A stretch of DNA of 64,000 bases from the NCBI RefSeq assembly GCF_001278075.1, contig NZ_CP011340.1, positions 186,001 to 250,000 on the forward strand, read 5' to 3'. Positions 5,422 through 63,824 of this stretch are shown here, in pieces (within the stretch, counting starts at the first letter, position 1; the number at the start of each line of letters is the position of its first letter). The position numbers and the translations under genes are program-made. The notes under the pieces were generated by a model. The model was not told the DNA's origin, did not search any database, and worked only from the letters and a program-made list of their open reading frames with translations. This DNA comes from Streptomyces pristinaespiralis (GTDB taxonomy: Bacteria > Actinomycetota > Actinomycetes > Streptomycetales > Streptomycetaceae).

Positions 5422-6911
5422 ACAACGCACTCTCGCGGCGCAAGGTACTGGGCGGCATCGCCGCAACGGTGGTCGGCTGGAGCGTCGCCAACCAGTCGTG
5501 GGCGACGGCCGCCGAGGTCGACGCCGGCCACCGGATCGACGTCCGGCAAGTGCCCGCCCTGGACGGGACGCTGACCACGTCGGCTACCGACCTGGACAGA
5601 TTCCGCCAGGACTTCGGGCGGCTGAAGCCGTCCGCGCCGTGGGCGGTCCTGCGTCCTGGTTCCGACCAGGACATCGTCAAAATGGTCAACTACGCCCGGA
5701 CCAACAAGCTGAAGATCGCCGTCAACGGGCAGGGCGGCACCGGCGACGACATGGAGTCGCACTCCGTGTACGGCCAGGCGGCCGTGCCGCAGGGCGGCAT
5801 ATCCATCGACGCCCGCGCCATGTCGAAGATCCTCAGCATCAACTCGACCAACGCGGTCGTCGAGGCCGGTGTCACCTGGGGACAGCTGACAGACGCCGCG
5901 CTGAAGGTCGGCAAGACACCGCCGGCGCTGCCCGACTACCTGCACCTGTCCATCGGCGGCACCGTCTCCATCGGCGGCATCGGCGGCACGGTGCAGAAGT
6001 TCGGCCTGCTGGCCGACACCGTCCACTCCATGGATGTCGTCACCGGCACCGGTGAGCTCGTCACCGTCTCCGCGTCCGCGCGGCCGGACCTGTTCCACTC
6101 GATCCTCTCCGGCGGCGGGCAGACGGCGATCATCCTGCGGGCCAAGGTGAAGCTCGCCCCCGCACCCCAGCGGTCGGTCGTCTTCAGCCTCTTCTACGAC
6201 GACCTGGCCACCTACCTCGCCGACGGCGAGAAGGTCATGGCGGAGAACCGGTTCCACATCCAGGCCGGCGAGATGCTGCGCCGCGCCGACGACACCGGCT
6301 GGCGCTACAAGATGGAGGTCGCCGCCAACTACTCCGGCACCGCCGTCCCCGACCGGGCGGCCCTGCTGGCCGGACTGCGCGACAACCGGGCCCAGGCGGT
6401 CATCGAGGACGTCGCCTACCGGGACTACATGTTCCGGCTCGACGGCTACGAGGTCTACCTGAAGGAGACCGGCCACTGGTACCAGCCCAAGCCGTGGCTG
6501 AGCCTGTTCCTGCCGGCGTCCAAGACCAAGGCGTTCATGCAGATGGTGGAGCAGGAGCTGACCGTCGGCGACCTGGGCGGCGGGTTCCTGCTGTTCTACC
6601 CGTACTACACCGGCAAGATCACCCGGCCGCTGGCGGTGCAGCCGAACGAGTCCGTCGGCTACCTCTTCGACCTGCTGCGGTTCCCCGACCCGGGCGACCC
6701 GAACATCTCGCAGATGCTCGAGCAGAACCGCCGCCTGTACGACAAGGCCGTGGCGCTGGGTGCCAAGCGGTACCTGGTCGGCGCGATCCCCCGGATGACC
6801 CAGGCCGACTGGAGGACGCACTTCGGCTACCGCTGGGAGGAGTTGTGCCGGGCCAAGCGGCGCTACGACCCGGCGAACATCCTCACCCCCGGTCAGGGCT
6901 TCTTCGGCTGA
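5418..6911 (+). CDS. Cytokinin-dehydrogenase-like FAD oxidase with Tat-like leader
   Basis: This 497-residue FAD-linked oxidase has a PCMH-type FAD domain (about 55-240). HSVYGQA near residue 115 is the region where cytokinin dehydrogenases bind flavin through histidine. DYLHLSIGGTVSIGG follows near 187, and the C-terminus has YDPANILTPGQGFF, also cytokinin-dehydrogenase-like. The N-terminus reads LSRRKVLGG then a hydrophobic run, a twin-arginine leader with likely cleavage near SWATAA. Such enzymes oxidise C-N or C-O bonds using O2. Export would be odd beside cytosolic ACP-linked enzymes and suggests a late step outside the membrane. A ribosome binding site (GGAGGAC) precedes the ATG. Confidence 0.85.
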   Translation: MNNALSRRKVLGGIAATVVGWSVANQSWATAAEVDAGHRIDVRQVPALDGTLTTSATDLDRFRQDFGRLKPSAPWAVLRPGSDQDIVKMVNYARTNKLKIAVNGQGGTGDDMESHSVYGQAAVPQGGISIDARAMSKILSINSTNAVVEAGVTWGQLTDAALKVGKTPPALPDYLHLSIGGTVSIGGIGGTVQKFGLLADTVHSMDVVTGTGELVTVSASARPDLFHSILSGGGQTAIILRAKVKLAPAPQRSVVFSLFYDDLATYLADGEKVMAENRFHIQAGEMLRRADDTGWRYKMEVAANYSGTAVPDRAALLAGLRDNRAQAVIEDVAYRDYMFRLDGYEVYLKETGHWYQPKPWLSLFLPASKTKAFMQMVEQELTVGDLGGGFLLFYPYYTGKITRPLAVQPNESVGYLFDLLRFPDPGDPNISQMLEQNRRLYDKAVALGAKRYLVGAIPRMTQADWRTHFGYRWEELCRAKRRYDPANILTPGQGFFG

Positions 6912-23810: not shown

Positions 23811-25184
23811 TTCGTGGATACCCCGGCCTTCAGACCGGGGAGGAGACGAAGCTCTTGCGGAGCAGGGCAGGGATGGGCGAATCGCCGCCAGGGCGGTTCG
23901 GCGTCTGCAACCACCGGCAGACACCCGCCGCTCACACGGGAACTGATAGCGTGTGAGGCGTGATGCAGCAGGTCAAGCGGGCTTTCAAGTACCGCTTTTA
24001 TCCCACGGACGAGCAGGCGGCTGAGCTGTCCCGCACGTTCGGCTGTGTCCGCCTCGTGTACAACAAGGCGCTTGAGGGGCGCACGCGAGCCTGGTACGGC
24101 GAGCAGCGCCGGGTCTCCTACGTGCAGTCGTCCGCCGCGCTGACGGAGTGGAAGAAGACCGAAGAACTCGCCTTCCTCTCGGAGGTGTCCTCCGTCCCGC
24201 TCCAGCAGGCGCTGCGGCACTTGCAGACGGCGTTCGCCAACTTCTTCGCCAAGCGGTCGAAGTACCCGCGGTACAAGTCGCGGAAAAAGTCCAGGGCGTC
24301 GGCCGAGTACACCCGCAGCGCCTTCACGTGGCGTAACGGACAGCTCACGCTGGCGAAGACCGCGGAGCCCCTGGACATCCGCTGGTCCCGTCCCCTTCCC
24401 GAAGGGGCGGAGCCGACGACGGTGACCGTGTCCCGCGACCGTGCGGGCCGCTGGTTCGTGTCCCTGCTGTGCGAGGACACCATCACCCCCGCGCCCGCCA
24501 CCACGGCGGCCGTCGGCATCGACGCCGGGATCACCTCCCTGGTGACCCTGTCCACCGGGGAGAAGATCACCAACCCCAAGCACGAGCGCCGTGACCGCGC
24601 CCGCCTCGCGAAGGCTCAGCGGGAGCTGTCGCGCAAGGCGAAGGGGTCGGCGAACCGGAAGAAAGCCCGCCGCAAGGTCGCCCGCGTCCACGCCCGGATC
24701 ACCGACCGGCGCTGCGACTTCCTCCACAAGCTGTCGACTCGACTCGTCCGTGAGAACCAAACGGTCGTGATCGAGGACCTCACCGTCCGCAACCTGCTGA
24801 AGAACGGCAAGCTCGCGCGCGCCATCTCCGACGCGGCCTGGACGGAACTGCGCTCCATGCTGGAGTACAAGTGCGCCTGGTATGGGCGCGAACTCGTCGT
24901 GATCGACCGCTGGTTCCCCAGCTCCAAGCTGTGCGGAACCTGCGGCACGGTCCGCGGGAAGCTGCCGCTGAACGTCCGGGAGTGGACGTGCGACTGCGGC
25001 GCTGTGCATGACCGCGACGTGAATGCGGCACGCAACATCCTGGCCGCCGGGCTGGCGGCGTCGGCCTGTGGAGACGGTATAAGACCTCAACGGGAGTCCT
25101 CCCGGACGGGGCGGTCGTCGGTGAAGCAGGAACCCCAGCGGGCGACCGCTGGAATCCCCCGCCTTTAGGCGGGGGAGGAAGTCA
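23811..25184 (+). mobile_element. IS1341-type (IS605 group) element carrying only tnpB
   Basis: The left end carries a hairpin CCCCGG/CCGGGG (23821-23840) and the right end a strong hairpin (25156-25163 with 25168-25175, loop TTTA) followed by GGAAGTCAA, typical of this group. No TnpA is present, so mobility would need one in trans. Boundaries are approximate. The element separates snaA from snaB, points against them, and its right edge supplies the snaA stop codon. No target-site duplication is expected for this family. Confidence 0.75.
23960..25168 (+). CDS. tnpB: TnpB RNA-guided nuclease (IS605 OrfB family)
   Basis: The 402-residue protein starts with KRAFKYRFYPTDEQAAELSRTFG, the usual TnpB N-terminus. 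The RuvC triad is intact: Asp188 (VGIDAGI), Glu272 (VIEDLTV) and Asp353 (HDRDVNAARNI). A zinc-binding segment with CGTCG and CDCG lies between the last two. TnpB uses RNA from the element's right end to cut DNA next to a short flanking motif. The stop TAG is inside the right-end hairpin. Nothing suggests inactivation, so it may be functional. Confidence 0.92.
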   Translation: MMQQVKRAFKYRFYPTDEQAAELSRTFGCVRLVYNKALEGRTRAWYGEQRRVSYVQSSAALTEWKKTEELAFLSEVSSVPLQQALRHLQTAFANFFAKRSKYPRYKSRKKSRASAEYTRSAFTWRNGQLTLAKTAEPLDIRWSRPLPEGAEPTTVTVSRDRAGRWFVSLLCEDTITPAPATTAAVGIDAGITSLVTLSTGEKITNPKHERRDRARLAKAQRELSRKAKGSANRKKARRKVARVHARITDRRCDFLHKLSTRLVRENQTVVIEDLTVRNLLKNGKLARAISDAAWTELRSMLEYKCAWYGRELVVIDRWFPSSKLCGTCGTVRGKLPLNVREWTCDCGAVHDRDVNAARNILAAGLAASACGDGIRPQRESSRTGRSSVKQEPQRATAGIPRL

Positions 25185-26468: not shown

Positions 26469-29400
26469 TCAGTTCTTGACGGCGGACGCCAGGATCCGGG
26501 CGAGGCTGCGCACGTTGTCGCCGGTCAGCATGGTCACGTGGTTGCCCGGCACGACCCGGATGGTGAGGTCTTCGACGTGGTCCTCCCAGCCGAGGCCGGG
26601 ACGGCCGTGGAACCGGTCGCTCTCGTCGTAGTCGGTGCCCTTGCCGAAGCTGGTGTCCCCCGCGCGCAGCACGACGACGGGACCGGCGTAGGAGCAGGGC
26701 CGGTAGCGCTGGATCGCCTCGACGCTGTCGCGCATCAGCGCGACGAGGTCGCCGCCGCCGTCGCCGCGCATCCATTCGGCGATCTGGGAGATCTCGGCGA
26801 GGTAGGCGGCCGACCCGGCGGGCTCCGCGGTGGCGGCGGCCCGGTCGTCGTCCGTGGCGGGGGGTTCGGGGTCGGTGGTGGTGGACGCGGGGTCGGGGGT
26901 GCGGCCTTCGGCGACCGCCCGCAGTTGACCGGCGAACGAGCCGTCGGCCTCCGCGTCGGTCAGTTCACCGTCCGGCGCGCCCGCGTCGACCATCACCACC
27001 AGCGGCGGTGTGCCGCCCTGCGCGGTGATCCGCTGGGCGATCTCGTAGGCGATGACGCCGCCGCCGGAGAAGCCGCCCAGCACGATCCGCTCCCCCGATT
27101 CCAGGGCGGGGGCGAGCGCCTGGAGGTAGTGCTCTGCCAGCTGCTCCGTGGAGCGGTACTCGGGCTCGGGGTCGTCGACGCGCGGGTCGCGGATGCCGAC
27201 GAGCGCCTCGGGGCCGGGGTAGCCGGCGGCGAGCTGCGCGTAGCAGGCGACCTGACCGCCCGGGGGGTGGACGAGGTGGACGGTGCCGGCGCCGGGCTGC
27301 CGGGCGGGCCGCAGCGGTACGAGGACCGATGCGGCGCCGTCGGCGTCCGCGCCGTCGTGCGGGGTCTCGGCGAGGAGGCGGGCGAGCATGCCGGCCCGGG
27401 GGTTGGCGAGCAGTTCGTCCAGGCGCAGGGTGCGGCCGGTGCGCAGGCTGATCTCGCGCAGCAGCCGCATGGCCAGCAGGGAGTGGCCGCCGGCTTCGAA
27501 GAAGTGCTCGCCGGGGTCGACGTCGGTGGTGCCGAAGACGGTCTGCCACGCCTGCCTGACCAAGTCCGCCTCCGGGCCCTCGGGCCAGTCGGCGGGCGTT
27601 TCGCCGGTGTCGTCCGGCTGCTCGGAGCGTTCGGCCATGCGCGGCAGGTCCGCGTCGGTGACGGTGGCCAGCACGTCGGCGACGGTGGTGGCCTCGTCGT
27701 CGGTGGCGGGCAGTTCGCGCAGCAGCCGGGCGCACTGGGCGACCAGCTTCTCCGCCTCGGCGTCGGCGATCCGGCCGCGGTCGTGGACGGCGGCGAGGAC
27801 CAGGCTGCCGTCCACGTCGCGGTAGGCGAGCAGGGTGACGGGGAACGCGGTCTGCGAGCCGGCCGCGTCGGGCAGTTCGACGCGGATGCCCTGGGCGGCG
27901 AGGGCGGATTCCAGGTCGCCGGAGGAGCGCGGGTAGTTCTCGAAGACGATGAGGCTCTCGACGAGCTTCTCGCCCGGCCTGCGGCCGCTCCACTCGTGGA
28001 TCTGGCCGGTGGAGACCCACTCGTAGGCCGCCATGTCCAGAGCCTGGTCGCGCAGTTCCGTCAGCAGCCGGGGAAGGCTGTGGCCGGGGTCGACCTGGAT
28101 GGTCATGGGCAGCGAGTTCATCAGCAGCCCGGGCAGCCGCTCGACCGCGTCGAGGGCGATGCCGCGGCCGGAGACGGTCACACCGAAACCGACCGGCGCC
28201 GGGCCGCTGGTGCCGCCCGCCCGGTACAGCAGCAGCGCCCACACGGCCTGCAGGGCACTGGACTCGGTGGCGGCGCGGGCCGCGGCCCAGGCGCGCAGCC
28301 GGTCGGCCTCCGCGGCGCTGAGCCGGCACTCCGCACGGCCCGAGCCGCTCTGGCCGGTCGCCGGGCCGGGGATGGCGGGCTGGACGACGGGCGCGGCGGC
28401 CGGGACGGCGTCGGACCAGAACTCCCGGGCGGGGGCGGTGTCCTGCTCGGACAGCCATTGCGAGTAGTCGCGCACGTCGGGGCGCCGCTCGCCGCCGGGC
28501 AGCGCACCGCCGGCGAGGTAGGCGCGGTAGAACTCCTGGAGCAGGATGGACACGCTCCAGCCGTCGAGCAGGACGTGGTGGAAGGTGAGCAGGATCCGTA
28601 CCGACAGCGGCTCTCGGCCGTCGGCGGGCGCCGGGTCGTCGACGAGGGTGACGCGCAGCAGTCCGGGGGTGCGCAGGTCGAAGCCGCGCAGCCGGTCGCG
28701 TTCCATCAGCGCGTCGAAGTCGGCGGGGCCGGCGGGGCCCGCGGCGTGGCGGGTGACCTCGGCGGTGACGTGGTCGTGCAGGACCAGGCAGGGCTCGTCC
28801 TGCCAGTCGAAGGAGGCCCGCAGCACGGTCTCGCGGTCGAACACCGACTGCCAGGCGGCGGTGAACCGGTCGGTGTCCAGGGGGCCGTGCCAGCGCCAGA
28901 ACAGCTGCTCCACGTAGCGGCCGGTGCCGGGGTGGGCGAGGGCGTCCAGGAGCAGGCCGTGCTGCTGGGGGGTGACCGGCACGGTCCCGGGGCCGTCCCC
29001 GGCGCCGCCGTGGTCGCTCCCGTCGTCGCCGCTGTGGGCGAGGACGGCGGGAGGGGCGGTGGGACGGGCGGGGCGCGGGGCGGGGCCGGTGGCGCCGGGC
29101 GCGGTGATCTCGGCCGGGGTCACGGCGTGCGGGTCGGCGCCCGCGAGCGTGGCCAGCACCCAGCTCATCTGCTCCACGAGCGCGTCGACGCCGGCCTCGT
29201 CCACACCGTCCGCCGGGCTCGGCACCCAGGTCAGGCCCATGCGCAGGCGGCCGCCGTGGACGATGCCGTACACCTCGATGCCGTAGACGCGCTCGCAGCG
29301 GGCGGAGTGCTCGCGCGGGATGGGACGGCCCGACATACGGAAACCGCCGTTCGGGCTCAACTGGTCGGCCTGACCGTAGTAGTTGAAGCACACCAGGGCG

Positions 29401-32400
29401 GGCGGCAGGTCACGCAGCAGAGTGCGCAGCCCGGCGTCCGGGGAGAACTCGCGGCAGGCGCCGAAGCCGACGCCGCCGTCCGGTACGGCGGTCAGCGCCG
29501 CGCCGATCTGGGCGAGGTACTGCTCGGGGTGCACGGAGCGGTCCGCGCCCAGGACGACGGGGTGGATGGAGGTGAACCAGCCGACGGTACGGAACAGTTC
29601 GTCGCGGCCGTGCCGTCCGTGGGTCTCCACGTCGAAGGTGACGGCGCGGCTGCCCCGCCAGCGGGCGAGGGCCTGCGCGAACGCGCCCGTCATCACCTGG
29701 TGCACCTGGAGGCCCAGCCGGCGCGGCAGCGGGCCGATGAGCCGGGCGGTCGCCTCCTCGTCGAGGCTGAACTCGACCCGGCGGATGTGCTCCTCGTCCG
29801 GCGCGGGCGTGGTCAGCAGCAGGGTCTGGGCCTCGGCACGTGCCGCCGCGAGGGCGCGCCAGTAGTCGGCCTCGCCGGGCCGGGCGGCCACGGCGGGCAG
29901 TGAGGCGACCCAGTCCTCGTAGCGGCACGCCTCCTCGGGCAGGGCGGGCAGGGCCCCGTCGGCGAGGGAGGCGAGGGCGTGCTCGAGGTCCTCCAGCAGG
30001 ATGCGCCAGGAGACCCCGTCCACGACGAGGTGGTGGACGGCGATCAGCAGATGGGTCGGGGCGGCGTCCGGGGAACGCCGGTCGTGGGCGAGCAGGGCCC
30101 GCACATGCACGCCGCGCAGCGGGTCCAGGCTGCGCTCGAGGTCCTCCATCACCCGGTCGAGCTCCGGGTCGCTGGTGATGTCCCGCTCCCACAGCACCTC
30201 CCGTGCCGGGTAGGCGGTGAACGGTGCCGCGCGGACCATGAGCCGGCCGGGGCCGTCGGGGTCGTCCGGGTCCTCGTCGAAACGGGCCGACAGGGCGGGA
30301 TGCGCGGCGACGACCGACTGCAGGGCGAGCCGCAGGACGGTGGGGTCGACGGCTTCGTTCAGCTCCAGCAGGACGGACTGGTTCCACTGGTGGAGGTCGG
30401 TCCTGATGTGCCGGAAGAACCACGACTGCACGGGCGCGAGCGGTGACACCGGCCCGGCGGCCCGCGCGGCGGGCCGGGTCCCGTCGCCGCCGCTCTCGTC
30501 GGCCTGCGGCGCGTCCGGGACCCCGGCGCCGAGGTGCGCGGCGAGGTCGGCCAGGACGGGGTTGCGGTAGATGTCGCGCATGGCGAGCGTGAACCCGGCG
30601 CGGCGCAGCCGGGACACGAGCTGCATGGCGAGGATGGAGTCCCCGCCGGCCTCGAAGAACTGCGCCTGGTCCCCGGCGTCCCCGAGCAGCTCCGCCCATA
30701 CGCCGCGCACGCGCTCCAGCACCTGCGCCGAAGGCGCGGGCGTGGGCGTGGGCGAGGTGGCCGGCACCGGCTCACCGGCCCCGTCGGGGGCCCGGGAGAC
30801 GACCGGCTGCGCCGGGGCGGTGGCGGCCGTGGCCGCCTCCAGCGGTGCACCACCCGATGCGAGCGGGGTGTCGGCGGCCGGGGCGTCTGCCGTGGCCGGC
30901 GCGGTGGCGGCCACAGCCGCCCGGTCGACGGCGCCCGGGGTCGCCTCCCGCGGTGAACCACCCGCCGTGGGCAGGACGGTGGCGTCCGCGACCGGCGCGG
31001 ACGCCGGGGCGGTCCCCGCCGCCATGGCCGCCCGGTCGACGGCGCCCGGGGCCGCCTCCTGCGGTGAACCACCCGCTGTGGGCGAGGTGTGGGCGGCCGG
31101 GGCCGGCGCGGGCGCCGGGGCCGGGGCGGTGGCGGCCGAAGCCGCCCGGTCGACGGCGGCCGTGACCGCCTCCCGCGGTGAACCACCCGCCGTGGGCAGG
31201 ACGGTGGCGTCCGCGACCGGCGCGGGCGCCGGGGCGTCCGCCGTCGTGGTCAGGCGGGCGAGGGTCTGGCGGTCGGTCTTGCCGTTGGGCAGGAGAGGGA
31301 TGCGCGGGACGTGGTGGAGGCGGGCCGGGAGCATGTGGGACGGGAGCAGGGGCTTCAGGGCCTGGCGGATCGCCGCCGTGTCCGTCGCCGGAGCCACCAC
31401 GTGGGCCACGATCTGGAGGCTGCCGTGGGTGTGGCGGACGGCCTGGACCGTGGCGTCCTCGACGCCGTCGAGGCACAGCAACGCGGCCCGGACCTCGCCG
31501 AGTTCGACCCGGTTGCCGTTGATCTTCACCTGGTCGTCGAGGCGGCCCAGGTGGGTGAGCGTGCCGCCCGGCAGCAGCCGGACCAGGTCGCCGGTGCGGT
31601 AGACGGTCTCGGTGCGGCCGCCGAGGTCGAGCGTGCGGTAGCGGTCGGCGGTGCGTTCCGGGTCGCCGATGTAGCCGTCGGAGACGGTGCCGCCGCCGAT
31701 CCACAGCTCGCCCGGCGCGCCGGGCGGCAGGGGCCGCTGGTGTTCGTCGAGGACGTGGCAGCGGATGTTGTCGAACGGCACGCCGATCGGCACCTCCGCG
31801 CGGCGTGTCCAGAACGCGTCGTCGCCGCGGGCCCAGGAGAAGACCGTGGAGTAGGAGGTCTCGGTCGGCCCGTAGGCGTTGTGCAGCCGGGCCGGGTGGG
31901 CGGCCTCGAAGGCGGTGCGCAGTTCGTTGGGCAGGGACTCGCCCGTCGAGACGACGGTGCGCAGGCTGCGGTTGGCGCCGAAGTTCTCCGCCTCCAGGAG
32001 CAGGCGGAGCTGGGAGGGCACCGCGTGCAGCAGCGTGACGCCGTACCGGTCGAGGGTCTCGGCCAGCAGGTCGGGGTCGCGTTCCGCGTCGGGCGGTGCG
32101 ACGGCGAGCCGGGCGCCCGCGACGAGGGCGACGAGCATCTCGTGGGCGCTGACGTCGAAGGTGAACGGCGCCTTGAGGAGCATCGTGTCGCCGGGGCCGA
32201 TGCCGAAGTGCCGTATCGCGGCGAGCACATCGGTGACCAGGGCGCGGTGGCTGAGCTGGACGCCCTTGGGGGTGCCGGTGGAGCCGGAGGTGTAGAGGAT
32301 GTGCAGGGCGCTGGAGGGGGCCGGTCCGCGCACCGCGGCCGCCGTGCCGGGCTGGGCCAGTTCGGCCGCCGGCACCTGCTGCGGGCCCGGGGGGCAGGCC

Positions 32401-34154
32401 GCTGCCGTCGAGGGGTCCACGACCGCGAGCCGCATGCCGCTGCTGTCGGCGATGTGGCGGCGGCGCGCCTCGGGGTGGGCGGCGTCCAGGGGGACGTAGG
32501 CCGCCCCGGTGCGCAGGACCGCGAGCATCACGGCGACGGCCTCGTCGCTGCGGGGCAGGAGGATGCCGACCCGGTCGCCGGCGCGCACGCCGCGGGCGGT
32601 GAGCCCGGCCGCGTACGCCTCGATGCGGGCGTCCAGGTCGCGGTAGGTCCAGCTGCGGTCGGCGAACCGGACGGCGACGGCGTCCGGCCGGGCCTCGACG
32701 ACGCCGCGGATCAGGGTGTCGATGTCCGTGTCGGCGACGGGGTGGTCGGTGGCGTTGAGGTGGTCGAGGGTGGCGCGGGCGCGCGGGCCGATGCCCTCGA
32801 GTCCGGTCACGGGGGCGTCCGGTTCGCGGACCAGTTGGCGGGCGAGGGTGGTGACGTGTTCGGTGAACGCCTCGGCGGTGGCGGCCTCGATGCGGGAGGC
32901 GTCGTACTTGAGGCGTCCGCGCAGCCGGCCGTCGCCCTCGTACAGCTCCAGGGTGAGCAGCCCCAGGCCCGGGGTGGGCACGTCCTGGCGCCAGTGGGCG
33001 CGCAGGCCGCCGCGCAGTGCGACGCCGTCGGTCGCGGCGGCGGTGGCGTCGGCCCAGCTGTGCAGGACGAAGGTGCAGTTGAACGGGGCGCCGGAGCCGG
33101 TGCGGGGGGCGAGTTTGGCGATGCGCGGGAACGGCAGCCGCGAGTGGTCGACGGCGCGGGCCAGTTCCCGCTGCACGCCGGTGACGAACCCGGCGGCGGT
33201 CAGGTCCTCGTCCTGGGCGGGGGCGCGCACCAGGAGGGTGCGTACGAAGTAGCCGACGGTGCGGTCGTAGCGCGGGTCGGTGCGGGCGCCGAGCGGCACG
33301 CCGACGGTGGGCGCGCTCTGCCGGCCGTACGTGCCGAGGGCCTTGAGGTAGGCGGCGAGCAGGACGGCGGCGGCTCCGGCGCGGTGGGTGCGGGAGAACG
33401 CGGTGATCTCACTCCAGAGCCGGCTGTCCAGTTCCAGCGGTACGGCCGCCTCGCGGCGCCCGTCGTCTCCGGCGGGGGTGTCGAGGGGGACGTCGACGGT
33501 CAGGTCGGCGCCGTCGAGGTGTTCGCGCCAGTACGTCTCCGCGGCGGCGGTGTCCTTCTCGGCCTCGCGGGCGCGTTCGCCGACGTAGGTGGCGAAGGCG
33601 GCGGGGGCGGGGCCGGGGACGTCCCCGTGCTCGTAGGCGGCGAGCAGGTCGGCGAGGAGCAGGCCGGTGGACTCGCCGTCGACGACGAGGTGGTGGACGA
33701 CGAGCAGCAGGGTGTGGTGCTCGGGGCCGTGGCCGAGGAGGACGGCGCGCAGCACGCCGTCCCGTTCCAGGTCGAGTTCGCGGCGGGCCTCGGCGAGCAG
33801 CGTGCCGGCGTCCGCGCCGTCGTCGGCGGCGGTGCGGCGCTCCAGGCGGGGGGCGCGGCCGGGGTCGATGTCGAGGAAGGGCGGGCCGTCGCCGTGGTCG
33901 TCGTCGGCGACGCGCGCGGACAGCATCGGGTGGCGGGCGACGAGCCGGCCGAGCGCCGCCTCGAGCGCGGCGGCGTCGAGCGGGCCGCGCAGGTCGAGGG
34001 CGAGGGGCACGTTGTACGGGGAGGCGGCGGGGTCGGCGCGATGCTGGAGCAGCAGTCCCAGCTGCTCCTCGGTGAGCGGTGTGCGGCGTGCCTCGTCCGC
34101 CCCCGGTCCGGCGGTCGCGGGGTTCTGCGCGCCTGGGGTCTGGAGTGTGGTCAT
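26469..34154 (-). CDS. snaD: Nonribosomal peptide synthetase C-A-T-E-C-T-TE, SnaD-like
   Basis: The 2561-residue protein has, in order: C (about 25-450, HHLVVDGES), A (about 470-970, [17 protein letters not shown]), a repetitive linker (about 970-1140), T (GGDSIL, near 1165), E (about 1230-1675, [14 protein letters not shown]), C (about 1725-2165, HHVLLDGWS), T (GGHSLL, near 2215) and TE (about 2280-2558, GFSGGG). The A-pocket reads D-V-H-H-V-T-A-Y-S, which is not a standard proline code. Its place before snaA suggests the terminal group A synthetase, and the E domain suits a D-residue such as D-proline (inference). The final C-T has no A domain. AGGAG precedes the ATG, and a SARP-type promoter lies upstream. 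Confidence 0.85.
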   Translation of the reverse strand: MTTLQTPGAQNPATAGPGADEARRTPLTEEQLGLLLQHRADPAASPYNVPLALDLRGPLDAAALEAALGRLVARHPMLSARVADDDHGDGPPFLDIDPGRAPRLERRTAADDGADAGTLLAEARRELDLERDGVLRAVLLGHGPEHHTLLLVVHHLVVDGESTGLLLADLLAAYEHGDVPGPAPAAFATYVGERAREAEKDTAAAETYWREHLDGADLTVDVPLDTPAGDDGRREAAVPLELDSRLWSEITAFSRTHRAGAAAVLLAAYLKALGTYGRQSAPTVGVPLGARTDPRYDRTVGYFVRTLLVRAPAQDEDLTAAGFVTGVQRELARAVDHSRLPFPRIAKLAPRTGSGAPFNCTFVLHSWADATAAATDGVALRGGLRAHWRQDVPTPGLGLLTLELYEGDGRLRGRLKYDASRIEAATAEAFTEHVTTLARQLVREPDAPVTGLEGIGPRARATLDHLNATDHPVADTDIDTLIRGVVEARPDAVAVRFADRSWTYRDLDARIEAYAAGLTARGVRAGDRVGILLPRSDEAVAVMLAVLRTGAAYVPLDAAHPEARRRHIADSSGMRLAVVDPSTAAACPPGPQQVPAAELAQPGTAAAVRGPAPSSALHILYTSGSTGTPKGVQLSHRALVTDVLAAIRHFGIGPGDTMLLKAPFTFDVSAHEMLVALVAGARLAVAPPDAERDPDLLAETLDRYGVTLLHAVPSQLRLLLEAENFGANRSLRTVVSTGESLPNELRTAFEAAHPARLHNAYGPTETSYSTVFSWARGDDAFWTRRAEVPIGVPFDNIRCHVLDEHQRPLPPGAPGELWIGGGTVSDGYIGDPERTADRYRTLDLGGRTETVYRTGDLVRLLPGGTLTHLGRLDDQVKINGNRVELGEVRAALLCLDGVEDATVQAVRHTHGSLQIVAHVVAPATDTAAIRQALKPLLPSHMLPARLHHVPRIPLLPNGKTDRQTLARLTTTADAPAPAPVADATVLPTAGGSPREAVTAAVDRAASAATAPAPAPAPAPAAHTSPTAGGSPQEAAPGAVDRAAMAAGTAPASAPVADATVLPTAGGSPREATPGAVDRAAVAATAPATADAPAADTPLASGGAPLEAATAATAPAQPVVSRAPDGAGEPVPATSPTPTPAPSAQVLERVRGVWAELLGDAGDQAQFFEAGGDSILAMQLVSRLRRAGFTLAMRDIYRNPVLADLAAHLGAGVPDAPQADESGGDGTRPAARAAGPVSPLAPVQSWFFRHIRTDLHQWNQSVLLELNEAVDPTVLRLALQSVVAAHPALSARFDEDPDDPDGPGRLMVRAAPFTAYPAREVLWERDITSDPELDRVMEDLERSLDPLRGVHVRALLAHDRRSPDAAPTHLLIAVHHLVVDGVSWRILLEDLEHALASLADGALPALPEEACRYEDWVASLPAVAARPGEADYWRALAAARAEAQTLLLTTPAPDEEHIRRVEFSLDEEATARLIGPLPRRLGLQVHQVMTGAFAQALARWRGSRAVTFDVETHGRHGRDELFRTVGWFTSIHPVVLGADRSVHPEQYLAQIGAALTAVPDGGVGFGACREFSPDAGLRTLLRDLPPALVCFNYYGQADQLSPNGGFRMSGRPIPREHSARCERVYGIEVYGIVHGGRLRMGLTWVPSPADGVDEAGVDALVEQMSWVLATLAGADPHAVTPAEITAPGATGPAPRPARPTAPPAVLAHSGDDGSDHGGAGDGPGTVPVTPQQHGLLLDALAHPGTGRYVEQLFWRWHGPLDTDRFTAAWQSVFDRETVLRASFDWQDEPCLVLHDHVTAEVTRHAAGPAGPADFDALMERDRLRGFDLRTPGLLRVTLVDDPAPADGREPLSVRILLTFHHVLLDGWSVSILLQEFYRAYLAGGALPGGERRPDVRDYSQWLSEQDTAPAREFWSDAVPAAAPVVQPAIPGPATGQSGSGRAECRLSAAEADRLRAWAAARAATESSALQAVWALLLYRAGGTSGPAPVGFGVTVSGRGIALDAVERLPGLLMNSLPMTIQVDPGHSLPRLLTELRDQALDMAAYEWVSTGQIHEWSGRRPGEKLVESLIVFENYPRSSGDLESALAAQGIRVELPDAAGSQTAFPVTLLAYRDVDGSLVLAAVHDRGRIADAEAEKLVAQCARLLRELPATDDEATTVADVLATVTDADLPRMAERSEQPDDTGETPADWPEGPEADLVRQAWQTVFGTTDVDPGEHFFEAGGHSLLAMRLLREISLRTGRTLRLDELLANPRAGMLARLLAETPHDGADADGAASVLVPLRPARQPGAGTVHLVHPPGGQVACYAQLAAGYPGPEALVGIRDPRVDDPEPEYRSTEQLAEHYLQALAPALESGERIVLGGFSGGGVIAYEIAQRITAQGGTPPLVVMVDAGAPDGELTDAEADGSFAGQLRAVAEGRTPDPASTTTDPEPPATDDDRAAATAEPAGSAAYLAEISQIAEWMRGDGGGDLVALMRDSVEAIQRYRPCSYAGPVVVLRAGDTSFGKGTDYDESDRFHGRPGLGWEDHVEDLTIRVVPGNHVTMLTGDNVRSLARILASAVKN
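30840..31235 (-). repeat. Four tandem 36-38-residue repeats in the SnaD linker
   Basis: The linker between the A and first T domain contains four imperfect copies of a unit starting TAGGSPREA (the last ASGGAPLEA) and including VDRAA. They start every 36-38 codons (about 108-114 bp). On the plus strand the copies are marked by GGTGAACCACCCGC-type sequence near 30843, 30953, 31066 and 31180. The Ala/Pro-rich unit is probably a flexible spacer, and copy number may vary between strains. Confidence 0.8.
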
Positions 34155-34232: not shown

Positions 34233-34275
34233 AGCGTGGCGGGGGCCGCCGACGTGCCGCTGACGTGCGGCTGAC
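34233..34275 (-). promoter_or_regulatory. SARP-type promoter of snaD
   Basis: Read on the minus strand, three heptamers start every 11 bp: GTCAGCC (34275-34269), GTCAGCG (34264-34258) and GTCGGCG (34253-34247). An 8-bp spacer GCCCCCGC and a -10-like CACGCT (34238-34233) follow. This is the layout of Streptomyces antibiotic regulatory protein sites, where the activator replaces the -35 box. The rest of the 333-bp gap (34155-34487) shows no gene. Confidence 0.75.
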
Positions 34276-34487: not shown

Positions 34488-35801
34488 TCAGCGGGGCGTG
34501 CGGGCGGCGACGAAGGCGGCGAGGCGGTCCAGGCCGGTGGTGATCTCGTCGGGGGTCAGCACGCTGTAGGACAGGCGCAGTTGGGTCAGGCCGCCGGTGC
34601 CCGCGTAGAAGTGGTACATCGGTGTCCACAGGACGCCGAAGCGGCCCGCCGACTCCTCCAGGGCCGCTTCGTCGGCGGTGAACGGCACGCTCAGCACGGC
34701 GAAGAGGCCGCCGGCGGGGGTGTTCCAGGTGACGCCGCTGCCGGGCGGGAAGCGGGTGGCGAGGCCGTCGAGGAGGACGTTCAGGTTGGTGCGGTAGACG
34801 GCGGCCTCGCGGGCGCAGGCTCGTTCCATGCTGCAGCCGTGCTCGAGGAGCAGGCCGCCGATGACGGCCTGGGCGAGGGCCGAGGTGTTGAGGGTGAGCA
34901 TGCTCTTGAGCTTGGCGAGCTGGTCGACGAGCAGGCCGCCCTCGGCGACGGGCTGGTCGGCGACGACGTAGCCGATGCGGGCGCCGGGGAAGGCGGTCTT
35001 GGCGAACGAGCCGATGTAGACGACGCGTCCGGAGCGGTCCATCGACTTCAGGGTCGGCGGCCGGCCCTGGCCGTCGTGGAACATCGAGTACGGGTTGTCC
35101 TCGATGAGGAGGATGTCCAGCTCGTCGGCGGCGTGCAGCAGCCGGCGGCGGTCGGCCTCCGACATGCGGGCGCCGCCGGGGTTGGAGAAGTCGGGGACGA
35201 CGTAGCAGGCGCGCGGTCGCAGTCCTTCGGCGCGGGCGGCGCGCACGGCGCGGGCGAGGTCCGCGGCGTCGAGTCCGCCGGGGCCTTCGGGGACCTGGCG
35301 GACCGTCATTTCGGTGAGGCGGGCGGCCCCGGTGAATCCCACGTAGGTGGGGGCGGCGGCGAGGACGGTGTCGCGTGCGTCGCGGCGCAGGGCGCGCAGC
35401 AGCAGGACCATGGCCTCCTGGCAGCCGGTGGTGACCAGGACCGCTTCGGGGTCGGCGGTGATGTGTTCGTCGGTGTGCAGCTGGCGTACGAGGAGGTCGT
35501 TGATGACGCCCTTGGTGGGCCCGTACTGGAACAGGGTGCGGCGTACCTGTTCCTCGCTGTGGCCGAGGTCCTGCTCGAGGTGGCGGGTGAAGCGCCGCAG
35601 GTGGTGGTGGAGGGCCTCGGTGTCGTAGTGGCCCTCGTAGGGCCGGCCCGCGGCGAACGACACGGCCTGGGGGTAGTTGCCGGTGATCTCGTTGAGGAGG
35701 GTCATCGAGGTCAGGGCCGGATCGGTGAGGCTGGCGTGCAGGTCGGCGGTGGTCAGCGGGGCCGCGGCCAGCCCGGGCGCCTCGAGCAGGCCCGCGGTCA
35801 C
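34488..35801 (-). CDS. pglE: PLP aminotransferase for phenylglycine, PglE-like
   Basis: The 437-residue fold-type I aminotransferase of the MocR/Aro8 group is like those that make hydroxyphenylglycine. Visible motifs are [10 protein letters not shown] near residue 90, [15 protein letters not shown] near 205, [11 protein letters not shown] near 233 and the PLP lysine in [17 protein letters not shown] near 265. It would turn phenylglyoxylate into phenylglycine, using an amino acid donor such as phenylalanine, which would regenerate phenylpyruvate. The start is GTG at 35801, overlapping the mbtH stop (GTGA). It is the last gene of the supply operon. Confidence 0.88.
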
Positions 35802-36016
35802 GCCGCCGTGCCGTTCATGGCGTCGATGAGGCTCTGGGGCCGCATGTCGGTCCACCGGTCGGTGATGTGGGCCAGGGCGCTCTCGCGGTCGGTGGCCGGC
35901 AGGGCGACGGTCCAGCCGGCCGGGACCTCGGCGAAGGACGGCCAGAGCGAGTACTGGCCCTCGTGGTTGACCAGGACGAGAAAGGTGCCCTCGGCGTCCT
36001 CGAAGGGGTTGCTCAT
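35798..36016 (-). CDS. mbtY: MbtH-like NRPS partner protein
   Basis: The 72-residue protein has the MbtH core: [31 protein letters not shown] and the C-terminal WTDMRPQSL. MbtH proteins bind adenylation domains and are often needed for their folding and activity. It probably serves SnbC, SnbDE and SnaD. It overlaps both neighbours by four bases, yet has its own SARP-type promoter inside the end of the thioesterase gene. Confidence 0.95.
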
Positions 36017-36867
36017 ATCGGTCTCCCGGTGTTCGGTGACGGTAGGCGTGTGGTGGTCCCCGTCCAGGCTGGCGGGGGCGGCTGTCGGCGGGCTGACGTG
36101 CCGCTGACGAGGCGGGCGGAGAGGTCGGCGGTGAGGTCGGCGGTGAGGTCGAGCAGGACGGGTGCCGGCTCGTGGGCGAGGTGGAAGTGGCCGCCGGGGA
36201 AGGTCTGTTCGCGGACGGGTCCGGTGGTGGCCGCGCGCCAGCCGGCCGCTTCCGCGGCGGTGAGCTCCGGGTCGCCGGTGGCGCGGTGCACGGTGAGCGG
36301 GGTGTGCAGGAGGGCGCCGGGGCGGGGGCGGTAGGTCTCGGCGAGGGCGTAGTCGGCGCGGGCGGTGCGCAGCACGATGTCGAGCATGTCGGGGTGGGCG
36401 AGGAGTTCGTCGGGGAAGCCGTCCAGGCGCCGCAGTTCGGCGATGAGTGCGCTGTCGCCGGCGCGGTGGACGGCGCCGGGGCGTACGAGGTGGGGTGCGG
36501 GCATGCCGGAGACGACGAGCCGCTGCGGGGGGCTTCCGGCGGCCTGGAGGCGCAGCGCGGTCTCGTAGGCGACCAGGGCGCCGAGGCTGTGGCCGTAGAG
36601 GGCGTAGGGGCCGCCGGTCAGGGGGCGGGCGGCCGCGGCGGCCTGGTCGGCGAGGGTGTGCAGGTCGTGCTGGAGGGGTTCGGTGATGCGGTCGGCGTGG
36701 CCGGGGTACTGGGCGGCGTGCAGTTCGACGCTGTCGGGCAGCAGGGCGGGCCAGTGGTGGTAGGCGGCGGTGGTGCCGCCGCCGTGCGGGAAGCACAGCA
36801 GTCGCACGGTGGCGCCGGGGCGGGGGTCGGGGCTGCGGTACCAGGGGCCGGTGGTGCGGGTGTTCAT
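36013..36867 (-). CDS. pglD: Type II thioesterase, PglD-like
   Basis: The 284-residue alpha/beta hydrolase has the type II thioesterase start [18 protein letters not shown] near 23, nucleophile [11 protein letters not shown] near 93 and a C-terminal [10 protein letters not shown] near 223. It may hydrolyse phenylglyoxylyl-CoA, as proposed for PglD, or clear stalled NRPS carriers. The ATG overlaps the E1-beta stop (ATGA). The last 30 or so residues ([13 protein letters not shown]...) are unlike the family and are encoded by the DNA of the mbtH promoter. Confidence 0.85.
36066..36108 (-). promoter_or_regulatory. SARP-type promoter of mbtH-pglE, inside the thioesterase gene
   Basis: On the minus strand, heptamers GTCAGCG (36108-36102), GTCAGCC (36097-36091) and GACAGCC (36086-36080) are spaced 11 bp. 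Then come the spacer GCCCCCGC, identical to the one at snaD, and a -10-like CAGCCT (36071-36066). Transcription would begin about 45 nt before mbtH. Confidence 0.72.
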
Positions 36868-37904
36868 GCGGCGGCCGTCCGGCGGGCGGGCCACTCCAGG
36901 GTGGCGACGGCGTCCAGGATGCGCTGGACGTCGGGCAGGTAGTGGCTTTCGAGGAGGGGTGCGGGGTAGGGCACGTCGAAGCCGGTGACGCGGCGTACGG
37001 GTGCTTCCAGGTGGTAGAAGCAGCGTTCGGTGATGCGGGCGGCGATCTCGGCGCCGGGGCCGGCGAAGCCGTGGGCCTCGTGGACGACGACGGCGCGGCC
37101 GGTGCGGTCGACGCTGGCGGCGACGGTCTCCTCGTCGAAGGGGGCGAGGGTGCGCAGGTCGATGACCTCCAGGCTCAGGCCGCTCTCCGCGGCGGCCTCG
37201 GCGGCGGCGAGGGCGGCGGGCAGGGCGGGGCCGTAGGTGACGAGGGTGGCGTCGGTGCCGCGGCGGCGGACGGCGGCCCAGCCCAGCGGGCCGGTGTCGG
37301 TGGGCAGCCCGGTCTTCTCCTTGTGCCAGTACAGGCGTTTGGGTTCGAGGAAGACGACGGGGTCGGGCCAGTCGATGGAGCGGCGCAGCAGGGAGTAGGC
37401 GTCGGCGACGGTGGCGGGGGTGACGACGGTGAGGCCGGGGGTGGCCATGTAGTAGATCTCGGAGGAGTCGCTGTGGTGTTCCACTCCCCCGATGCCGCCG
37501 CCGTAGGGGATGCGGACGGTCAGCGGCAGCGGCAGTTGGCCGCGGGTGCGGGCGCGGAACTTGGCGACGTGGCTGACGAGTTGTTCGAAGGCGGGGTAGG
37601 CGAAGGCGTCGAACTGCATCTCGACGACGGGCCGGTAGCCGTACATGGCCATGCCGACGGCGGTGCCGATGATGGCGGATTCGGCGAGCGGGGTGTCGAA
37701 GCAGCGGTCGTCGCCGAATTCGCGGGCCAGGCCGTCGGTGACGCGGAAGACGCCGCCGAGGGTGCCGACGTCCTCGCCGAAGACGAGGGTGTTCTCGTCG
37801 GCGCGCAGGGCGTCGCGCAGGGCGGTGTTGAGGGCTTTGGCCATGGTGACGGTGCCGTCGGCGGTGCTCTTGCCGGTGCGGGCGGCGGCGGGGTCGGTGG
37901 GCAT
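36864..37904 (-). CDS. pglC: 2-oxoacid dehydrogenase E1-beta-like, PglC
   Basis: The 346-residue transketolase-type subunit has [16 protein letters not shown] near 41, [18 protein letters not shown] near 69 and [18 protein letters not shown] near 128, with the His typical of E1-beta. With PglB it would decarboxylate phenylpyruvate and pass the phenylacetyl group to CoA. No E2 or E3 is in the window, so a housekeeping lipoyl complex must complete the reaction (inference). It begins one base inside the PglB stop (TGATG). Confidence 0.9.
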
Positions 37905-40382: not shown

Positions 40383-62701
<22,319 letters not shown>

Positions 62702-62752: not shown

Positions 62753-62795
62753 AGCCTCGCGGGAGGGGTTGACGGGGCGCTGACCCGCTCCTGAT
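62753..62795 (-). promoter_or_regulatory. SARP-type promoter of snbC
   Basis: On the minus strand, heptamers ATCAGGA (62795-62789), GTCAGCG (62784-62778) and GTCAACC (62773-62767) start 11 bp apart. They are followed by the 8-bp spacer CCTCCCGC and a -10-like GAGGCT (62758-62753). It lies in the 109 bp between the regulator gene and snbC and would drive the long operon. Confidence 0.75.
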
Positions 62796-62810: not shown

Positions 62811-63560
62811 TCAGCGCAGGCCGGTCTCGAAGGCGTAGATGGCCACGTGCACGCGGTTGCGCAGCCGCAGCTTGTTCAGCAGGTTCTGCACATGGGTCTT
62901 GACGGTGTGTTCGGACAGCGTCAGCGACTGGGCGATCTCGGTGTTGGACAGTCCGCGGGCCACCAGGTCGAGGATCTGGCACTCGCGGCCGGTGAGCTGC
63001 TCGGGCGGCACGTCGGAGACGGTGGCGGCGGCCCGGGGCCGGGGTGCGGCCTTCTCCGGCGTGGCGGCCGGGGCGGGTTCGGTGGTGGTGGGGGGCAGCG
63101 GGCCTCGGGTCAGCGAGTAGCCGGCGGCGGCCAGTGAGACGGCGGCGGCCAGCTGCTGGGAGGTGGTGGAGTGGGGCAGATGGCCGTGCAGGACGGCCGT
63201 GGTCCGGCCCTTGGGCTCGGCCCCGCCGACGGTGAGCACCCGTATGCCGGGGTCGACCTCGCGCAGCAGCGCGTCGGCCTCGTGCGCCTCGCGCAGCCCG
63301 TGGACGACGAGCACGTCGGGCGCCTGGGCCCGCAACGCTGCCAGGGCCCGCGGGCCGGGCTCGTCCTCCCCTATGACACTGATGCCGCCCTGCCCGTCGA
63401 GCAGGGAGCGGATCCCGGCCCGGGCGAGCGCGTCACCGCCGACGAGGAACAGCCGCACTCCCGGTGCGGCGGTCGCCCCGCCGGGCAGCATGCGCAGGAC
63501 GGAGGCCTTGCCGCCGTGCGCGGGCGCCGTCCGGCCGAGGCCGGTTCCTGCTTCCGTCAT
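62811..63560 (-). CDS. NarL/LuxR-type regulator with degenerate receiver
   Basis: The 249-residue regulator ends in a LuxR helix-turn-helix (about 183-245): [25 protein letters not shown], then [20 protein letters not shown]. The N-terminal half keeps the receiver fold ([20 protein letters not shown]). However, the loop that should hold the phosphorylated Asp reads DVLVVHG, with no Asp in place, so it is an orphan pseudo-receiver. PapR6 of the pristinamycin cluster is described as such a regulator, and this may be its counterpart. It lies directly before snbC. The ATG is at 63558-63560. Confidence 0.82.
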
Positions 63561-63824
63561 GACCCGCCCCCTGTGCCGCACTTGTGGTCGTCAAGCACGA
63601 TCACGCTATCCGCCGCCGGTGGGGCGGCCCGGGCTTCTCCAGCCGGCTTCGAGAGGGCGCTGAGCTGTTCAGGAGTCAGGGGCCTCGCGCGGGGTGCCGA
63701 CCACGGGGCCGGGCAGAACCGCTCGAGGCCCGCTCGAGGCGCCGGGCCTGAAGGCGGGGGCGGGTTGACCGGGCCGGGCGGGCGGTGGTGGTATCGCGCT
63801 CCACGACGAGGGCATGGGACGATC
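63561..63824. promoter_or_regulatory. Divergent promoter region with direct repeats
   Basis: These 264 bp separate the regulator and the hemerythrin-like gene. Two direct copies of GCTCGAGGC lie at 63721-63729 and 63732-63740, 11 bp apart, the spacing of SARP sites. A lone GTCAACC with a C-rich tail is at 63769-63763 on the minus strand. GTCAGGG at 63675-63681 has no partner at 11 bp. Confidence 0.45.

Follow-up and report, generated by a model that had tools for sequence, protein, structure and literature searches.

Streptogramins act as a pair, so a producer must turn on two unrelated pathways together. For Streptomyces pristinaespiralis, passages of the published work describe PapR2 alone as the essential activator and say that it binds the pristinamycin I and II promoters (PMC7554373), give its consensus as GTCAGSS (PMC7040171) and state that snbC is under its control (PMC7089894). 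In general, SARPs occupy repeats that cover the −35 and compensate for a poor −10 (PMC10936776); the published rule is that the repeats are stepped by 11 bp and that 8 bp separate them from the −10 (PMC10936776, PMC7040171, PMC4393881). AfsR dimerizes side by side on repeats with this 11-bp step (PMC10936776), and for PimR the third repeat matters (PMC5930380).

The sites described here share with the AfsR-bound afsS promoter direct repeats at 11 bp that lie 8 bp from a poor −10 and overlap the −35 (PMC10936776), but have three repeats rather than two and a different heptamer. They share with OtcR and the oxytetracycline promoters the use of one SARP layout at many promoters of one cluster, with two or three repeats and an 8-bp distance to the −10 (PMC4393881), but differ in motif and antibiotic class. 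The PimR operators at pimM also have three heptamers at 11 bp, whereas PimR, as described in passages of PMC5930380, has a single target gene, a main operator that does not overlap the −35 and no 9-bp step that we could find (its secondary operator, at 10 bp, indicates that steps other than 11 are known). In gene content and GTCAGSS consensus, the locus matches the PapR2 regulon of S. pristinaespiralis, whose activator is said to bind the pristinamycin I and II promoters and to regulate snbC (PMC7040171, PMC7554373, PMC7089894). Promoter class, heptamer and regulator are already known, and co-activation of both streptogramin halves is already in print. A sequence-only reading of this DNA had proposed SARP-type promoters of one layout at three genes; this stands in kind, and the sites probably belong to one SARP regulon, but the parts claimed as new do not stand, the 8-bp gap to the −10 being part of the general SARP rule given above. 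Within the literature listings and passages searched, those on the PapR2 regulon included, we found no description of an internal mbtH (mbtY) promoter, of conservation across clusters or of a 9-bp variant, although Mast et al. (2015) may list base-level sites. From the observed layout, rarity and conservation, we put at roughly 0.88 the probability that these sites act as SARP-activated promoters within a single streptogramin regulon, with SARP binding, activation and transcription starts as predictions of that reading.

Three sites of one layout

The window (the whole stretch of 64,000 nucleotides analysed, positions 186001-250000 of an 8.53-Mb contig) matches in gene content and order what passages of PMC7089894 report for S. 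pristinaespiralis. Its minus strand carries three predicted SARP-type promoters. The snbC site (62753..62795; heptamers 62795-62789, 62784-62778 and 62773-62767, spacer 62766-62759, −10 hexamer 62758-62753) reads ATCAGGA-4-GTCAGCG-4-GTCAACC-cctcccgc-GAGGCT; the mbtH (mbtY) site (36066..36108; heptamers 36108-36102, 36097-36091 and 36086-36080, spacer 36079-36072, −10 36071-36066) reads GTCAGCG-4-GTCAGCC-4-GACAGCC-gcccccgc-CAGCCT; and the snaD site (34233..34275; heptamers 34275-34269, 34264-34258 and 34253-34247, spacer 34246-34239, −10 34238-34233) reads GTCAGCC-4-GTCAGCG-4-GTCGGCG-gcccccgc-CACGCT. Re-reading confirmed, letter for letter, the positions and strand that the sequence-only reading had assigned to these sites, and its layout of heptamer steps of 11 and 11 bp, an 8-bp spacer and a hexamer was exact at all three. 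SARP promoters are recognized by two or more direct repeats 11 or 22 bp apart with the 3′ repeat 8 bp from the −10; each window site has three heptamers at 11-bp steps and this 8-bp distance. Matches to GTCAGSS, out of seven per heptamer, were 7, 7 and 6 at snaD and mbtH and 5, 7 and 6 at snbC. The hexamer, initially given as NASNCT, is better written NASNNT (CAGCAT, CACAGT and CAGGAT were seen among the 65 sites described below), with A2 and T6 favoured in scoring. An identical C-rich spacer, GCCCCCGC, does occur twice in the window, but among relatives its length is kept and its sequence is not; the spacer was rejected as a functional element, its eight columns carrying 0.01-0.66 bits and its sequences differing among relatives.

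The snbC site starts 15 nt past the stop codon of a LuxR-type regulator gene (papR6-like; 62811..63581, minus strand, start uncertain; PF00196; ~70% to the response regulator beside snbC in plasmid NBC_01361), which adjoins the promoter upstream, and its hexamer ends 51 nt before snbC. That gene (54926..62701, minus strand, GTG start, open frame) encodes a group B peptide synthetase 79% identical to an annotated NRPS of plasmid NBC_01361, its name resting on homology and published gene order; its end is overlapped by the start of snbDE, a second group B peptide synthetase gene (40383..54929, minus strand). The mbtH site lies inside the 3′ end of the thioesterase gene pglD (36013..36894, minus strand; PF00975), whose stop overlaps the start of the mbtH-like gene mbtY (35798..36016, minus strand; PF03621), 49 nt from the hexamer end; the aminotransferase gene pglE is at 34488..35801 (start approximate, minus strand; PF00155; 80% to NBC_01361). 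At snaD, a group A peptide synthetase gene identified by homology (26469..34154, minus strand, ATG start, open frame), the corresponding distance is 78 nt. The genes 3′ of snaD encode two luciferase-like oxidases, a SAM synthetase, a PfkB kinase and a methionine synthase, and may share a transcript with it, to judge from their close spacing in NBC_01361; through these genes the snaD promoter may contribute to methyl supply as well. In plasmid NBC_01361 the two oxidase genes overlap by 4 nt; here the string of genes is split by an antisense TnpB-type IS605 OrfB gene (23960-25168, plus strand; PF01385, PF07282, PF12323) that separates the oxidase genes at 26450-25182 and 23801-22968.

Rarity and extent of the candidate regulon

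Scores came from a matrix that combined the second and third heptamers with the hexamer and added the distal heptamer, for which a gap of 2-4 was allowed; its training set was 20 sites from eight other genomes, with none from the window. The control comprised 1,595,120 positions, taken on both strands from forty 20-kb stretches of the same chromosome outside 100-500 kb. That exact register at three places would be hard to get by chance was borne out: the snbC, mbtH and snaD sites scored 38.0, 35.5 and 35.2, against a control maximum of 18.0, and 29.4, 25.6 and 24.9 without the distal heptamer, against a control maximum of 17.0. When each promoter family in turn was left out of training, the window genome's own site exceeded every control position in five of five families, as did 60 of 69 regions over all clusters (snbC 14/14, mbtY 9/14, snaD 10/14, snbA 14/14, pipA 13/13). 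The snaD regions that did not beat all controls were those of YIM 130001, S. durbertensis, Micromonospora and SW4; with mbtY left out, five of its 14 regions were equalled by control positions (four of them by 4-6, SW4 by 14). Matches arising by chance in GC-rich DNA have in their favour that RTCAR words are frequent (3,871 in the control strands), but control scores came nowhere near those of the window and the layout is kept across 14 clusters, so that we give this explanation next to no weight. A degenerate form of the pattern matched 15 places in the whole genome, namely the five cluster sites in two mirrored copies and five others, and the reversed pattern one. The window lies inside a long terminal inverted repeat and is mirrored near 8.28-8.35 Mb of its contig; as the five sites and the neighbouring SARP genes each occur twice, mirrored, the chromosome as assembled has two copies of the region.

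Scanning 100-500 kb of the chromosome with the matrix recovered the three window sites and two more, these being the only five above 17. The additional pair lies outside the window at 400.6 kb, between divergent genes for an AMP-binding enzyme on one side and an ornithine-cyclodeaminase-family protein followed by a P450 on the other, which we take to be SnbA, PipA and SnbF, consistent with homology. Both sites were predicted by a matrix with neither family in its training set. The expectation that the group A synthetase would fall under the same layout held for the snaD unit but not for other group A genes in 100-500 kb, which, given only five sites above 17, do not carry this exact layout (the snaE genes were not located). 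SnbA homologues at 13 loci outside the 14 clusters had no core of 14 or more; the one at 13.6 (L238) has a GTCAGCG pair, preceded at 8 bp by a third repeat, but lacks a −10 that fits. Isolated cores of 17.5 and 17.6 beyond the five promoters (G001 C26 32098 +, G006 C9 194512 +) are probably chance. The five transcription units of the streptogramin switch thereby gain base-level candidate promoters, and the matrix could be used to find and refactor streptogramin clusters.

Conservation and a 9-bp variant

Fourteen streptogramin clusters were compared (the window, eight other genomes from a scan with PglE and five replicons from a plasmid collection), with sites counted at a score of 17 or more. 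Five orthologous promoters yielded 65 sites with 49 distinct cores, found in Streptomyces, Kitasatospora and Micromonospora and on linear plasmids: at snbC and snbA in 14 of 14 clusters each; at pipA in 13 of 13; at mbtY in 13 of 14 (in SW4 the site scores 16.5 and is one base shorter, and the gene matches are broken); and at snaD in 11 of 14. The snaD site is absent from YIM 130001 and Micromonospora, and is therefore not essential to every cluster, and the S. durbertensis contig ends there; pipA was not found in the three Micromonospora loci searched, although that contig has an unassigned site scoring 25.2 in another place. Because some of the clusters nearly duplicate one another, the set represents ~10 lineages, and the constancy of the 11-bp and 8-bp distances over the 65 sites is partly by construction because the scan was fixed on both. 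A count independent of the matrix, over 65 distinct upstream regions, gave 70 RTCAR pairs at 11 bp, 18 at 9 bp, two at 10 bp and one at 13 bp; in control DNA, pairs at 11 bp were rare (4) and those at 9 bp above average (34 versus 11.9), an excess taken for a reading-frame effect. Linear plasmids, 287-1037 kb in size, carry streptogramin cluster genes in Streptomyces NBC_01361, NBC_01445 and NBC_01294, S. xanthii and S. albogriseolus LBX-2 (L243-L252). Just downstream of the Micromonospora snbC site (L110) is a second, weaker heptamer triple (18/21 matches).

A 9-bp step of the distal heptamer, spotted by eye and then scripted, marks a subset of clusters. At 18 of the 19 sites of S. durbertensis, Streptomyces BR123, Kitasatospora MBT63 and plasmid NBC_01294, the distal heptamer lies 9 bp above the middle one (four of four each at snbC, mbtY, snbA and pipA; two of three at snaD, where MBT63 has 11), and BR123 snbC has an equal heptamer also at 18, that is, a fourth repeat. 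The other ten clusters have a distal heptamer at 37 of 46 sites, 35 at 11 bp, two at 10 (YIM 130001 pipA and SW4 snaD) and none at 9; the nine sites that have none are the snbA sites of the window's group. The proximal heptamer pair, the 8-bp gap and the −10 are unchanged in the 9-bp clusters. In a tree of SnbC, PglE and SnbA, these four clusters group as a clade (93.2/89), and its sister (100/100) is Micromonospora, where the step is still 11 bp; on that midpoint-rooted tree, the shift to 9 bp would have arisen once. Spacers differ between promoters, which speaks against plain copying of a single promoter. A changed recognition helix was rejected as the cause, the T-to-N change in the gamma SARPs (see below) being present also in Micromonospora, which has 11 bp. 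The distal heptamer looks accessory, even though a third repeat matters for PimR, and the conserved part is what a SARP dimer needs.

A 9-bp step should bar the side-by-side contact made at 11 bp, and a third protomer would therefore have to sit differently. At somewhat less than even odds, we suggest that the streptogramin SARP regulon evolves as a unit, with the proximal dimer as a fixed activating core and the distal contact reshaped together with the activator. How SARP protomers assemble on operators with three repeats is a question beyond the reach of the AfsR structure, which has two; the 9-bp clade provides a natural experiment on it.

Candidate activators and competing readings

BTAD proteins are encoded near the window and on the relatives' cluster contigs, with SARP genes in the region and in eight of eight other genomes searched. 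A tree of 31 hand-picked BTAD proteins gave three cluster groups, alpha, beta and gamma, with alpha and gamma members in nine of nine genomes (two from Micromonospora look damaged or mis-framed) and close beta members in five. The recognition helix reads QTY.(L/M)QLR in beta and gamma (QSY in one gamma protein) and QAH in alpha. The likeliest activator is PapR2, probably a member of the SARP group located at chromosome position 392506 or 411911; the name papR2 was absent among the 120 matches listed in a protein search. Against PapR2, passages of the literature report that its overexpression lowered pristinamycin production (PMC6963833) and that it did not shift a weak-motif fragment (PMC7040171).

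In the mechanism that we propose, the proximal heptamers, which cover the −35 and stop 8 bp short of a weak −10, would hold two SARP protomers lying side by side; the bound pair would recruit RNA polymerase, and a further protomer on the distal heptamer would strengthen binding. From the snbC site, transcription would run through the group B synthetase genes into the phenylglycine genes that follow; mbtY-pglE would gain a supplementary internal promoter in the mbtH site; and the last group A synthetase and downstream genes would be driven from the snaD site. Outside the window, the divergent snbA/pipA region adds two sites with this layout as further candidate targets.

With several SARPs present, one may not serve all sites, and the operators could be read by different cluster SARPs at different promoters without a single co-activator. 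The region does hold at least three SARP groups, and the nearly identical helices of beta and gamma mean that both could read the motif; but five promoters with one motif and a joint change in the 9-bp clade are most simply explained by one regulator, and PapR2 alone is called the essential activator in passages of PMC7554373, which together make a division of labour unlikely. A narrower doubt concerns the mbtH site. The claim of three operons did not survive published RT-PCR, which in passages of PMC7089894 places snbDE through pglE, mbtY included, on a single transcript, so that a promoter within pglD, at its 3′ end, would be internal. Given this read-through and the position within pglD, the site could bind a SARP yet be no working promoter, mbtY-pglE being already transcribed from upstream. 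Against such silence, the layout including the −10 is kept in 13 of 14 clusters, the site is intergenic in NBC_01294, and YIM 130001 retains it, behind a hairpin, though pglD was not found beside mbtY; we regard a silent site as improbable and favour an internal promoter within the shared SARP regulon.

The SARP genes themselves differ in their upstream regions. Alpha and gamma showed no convincing heptamer pair there (best 5.8 and 11.5), and beta (338379-) has repeats at 11 bp in four of five genomes, with no −10 at 8 bp in the window genome. There, three GTCAG repeats at 11 bp lie at chromosome positions 339357-339315 (minus strand), ~200 nt from the gene start, and similar repeats precede the gene in three of four close relatives. 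If, as we infer, beta is PapR1 and gamma is PapR2, these repeats would fit the control of papR1 by PapR2 described in passages of PMC7554373. On contig C371 of S. durbertensis (L209), three further sites of 18.5-22.9, at 6582 +, 1772 − and 3514 −, lie in a stretch beside another SARP gene.
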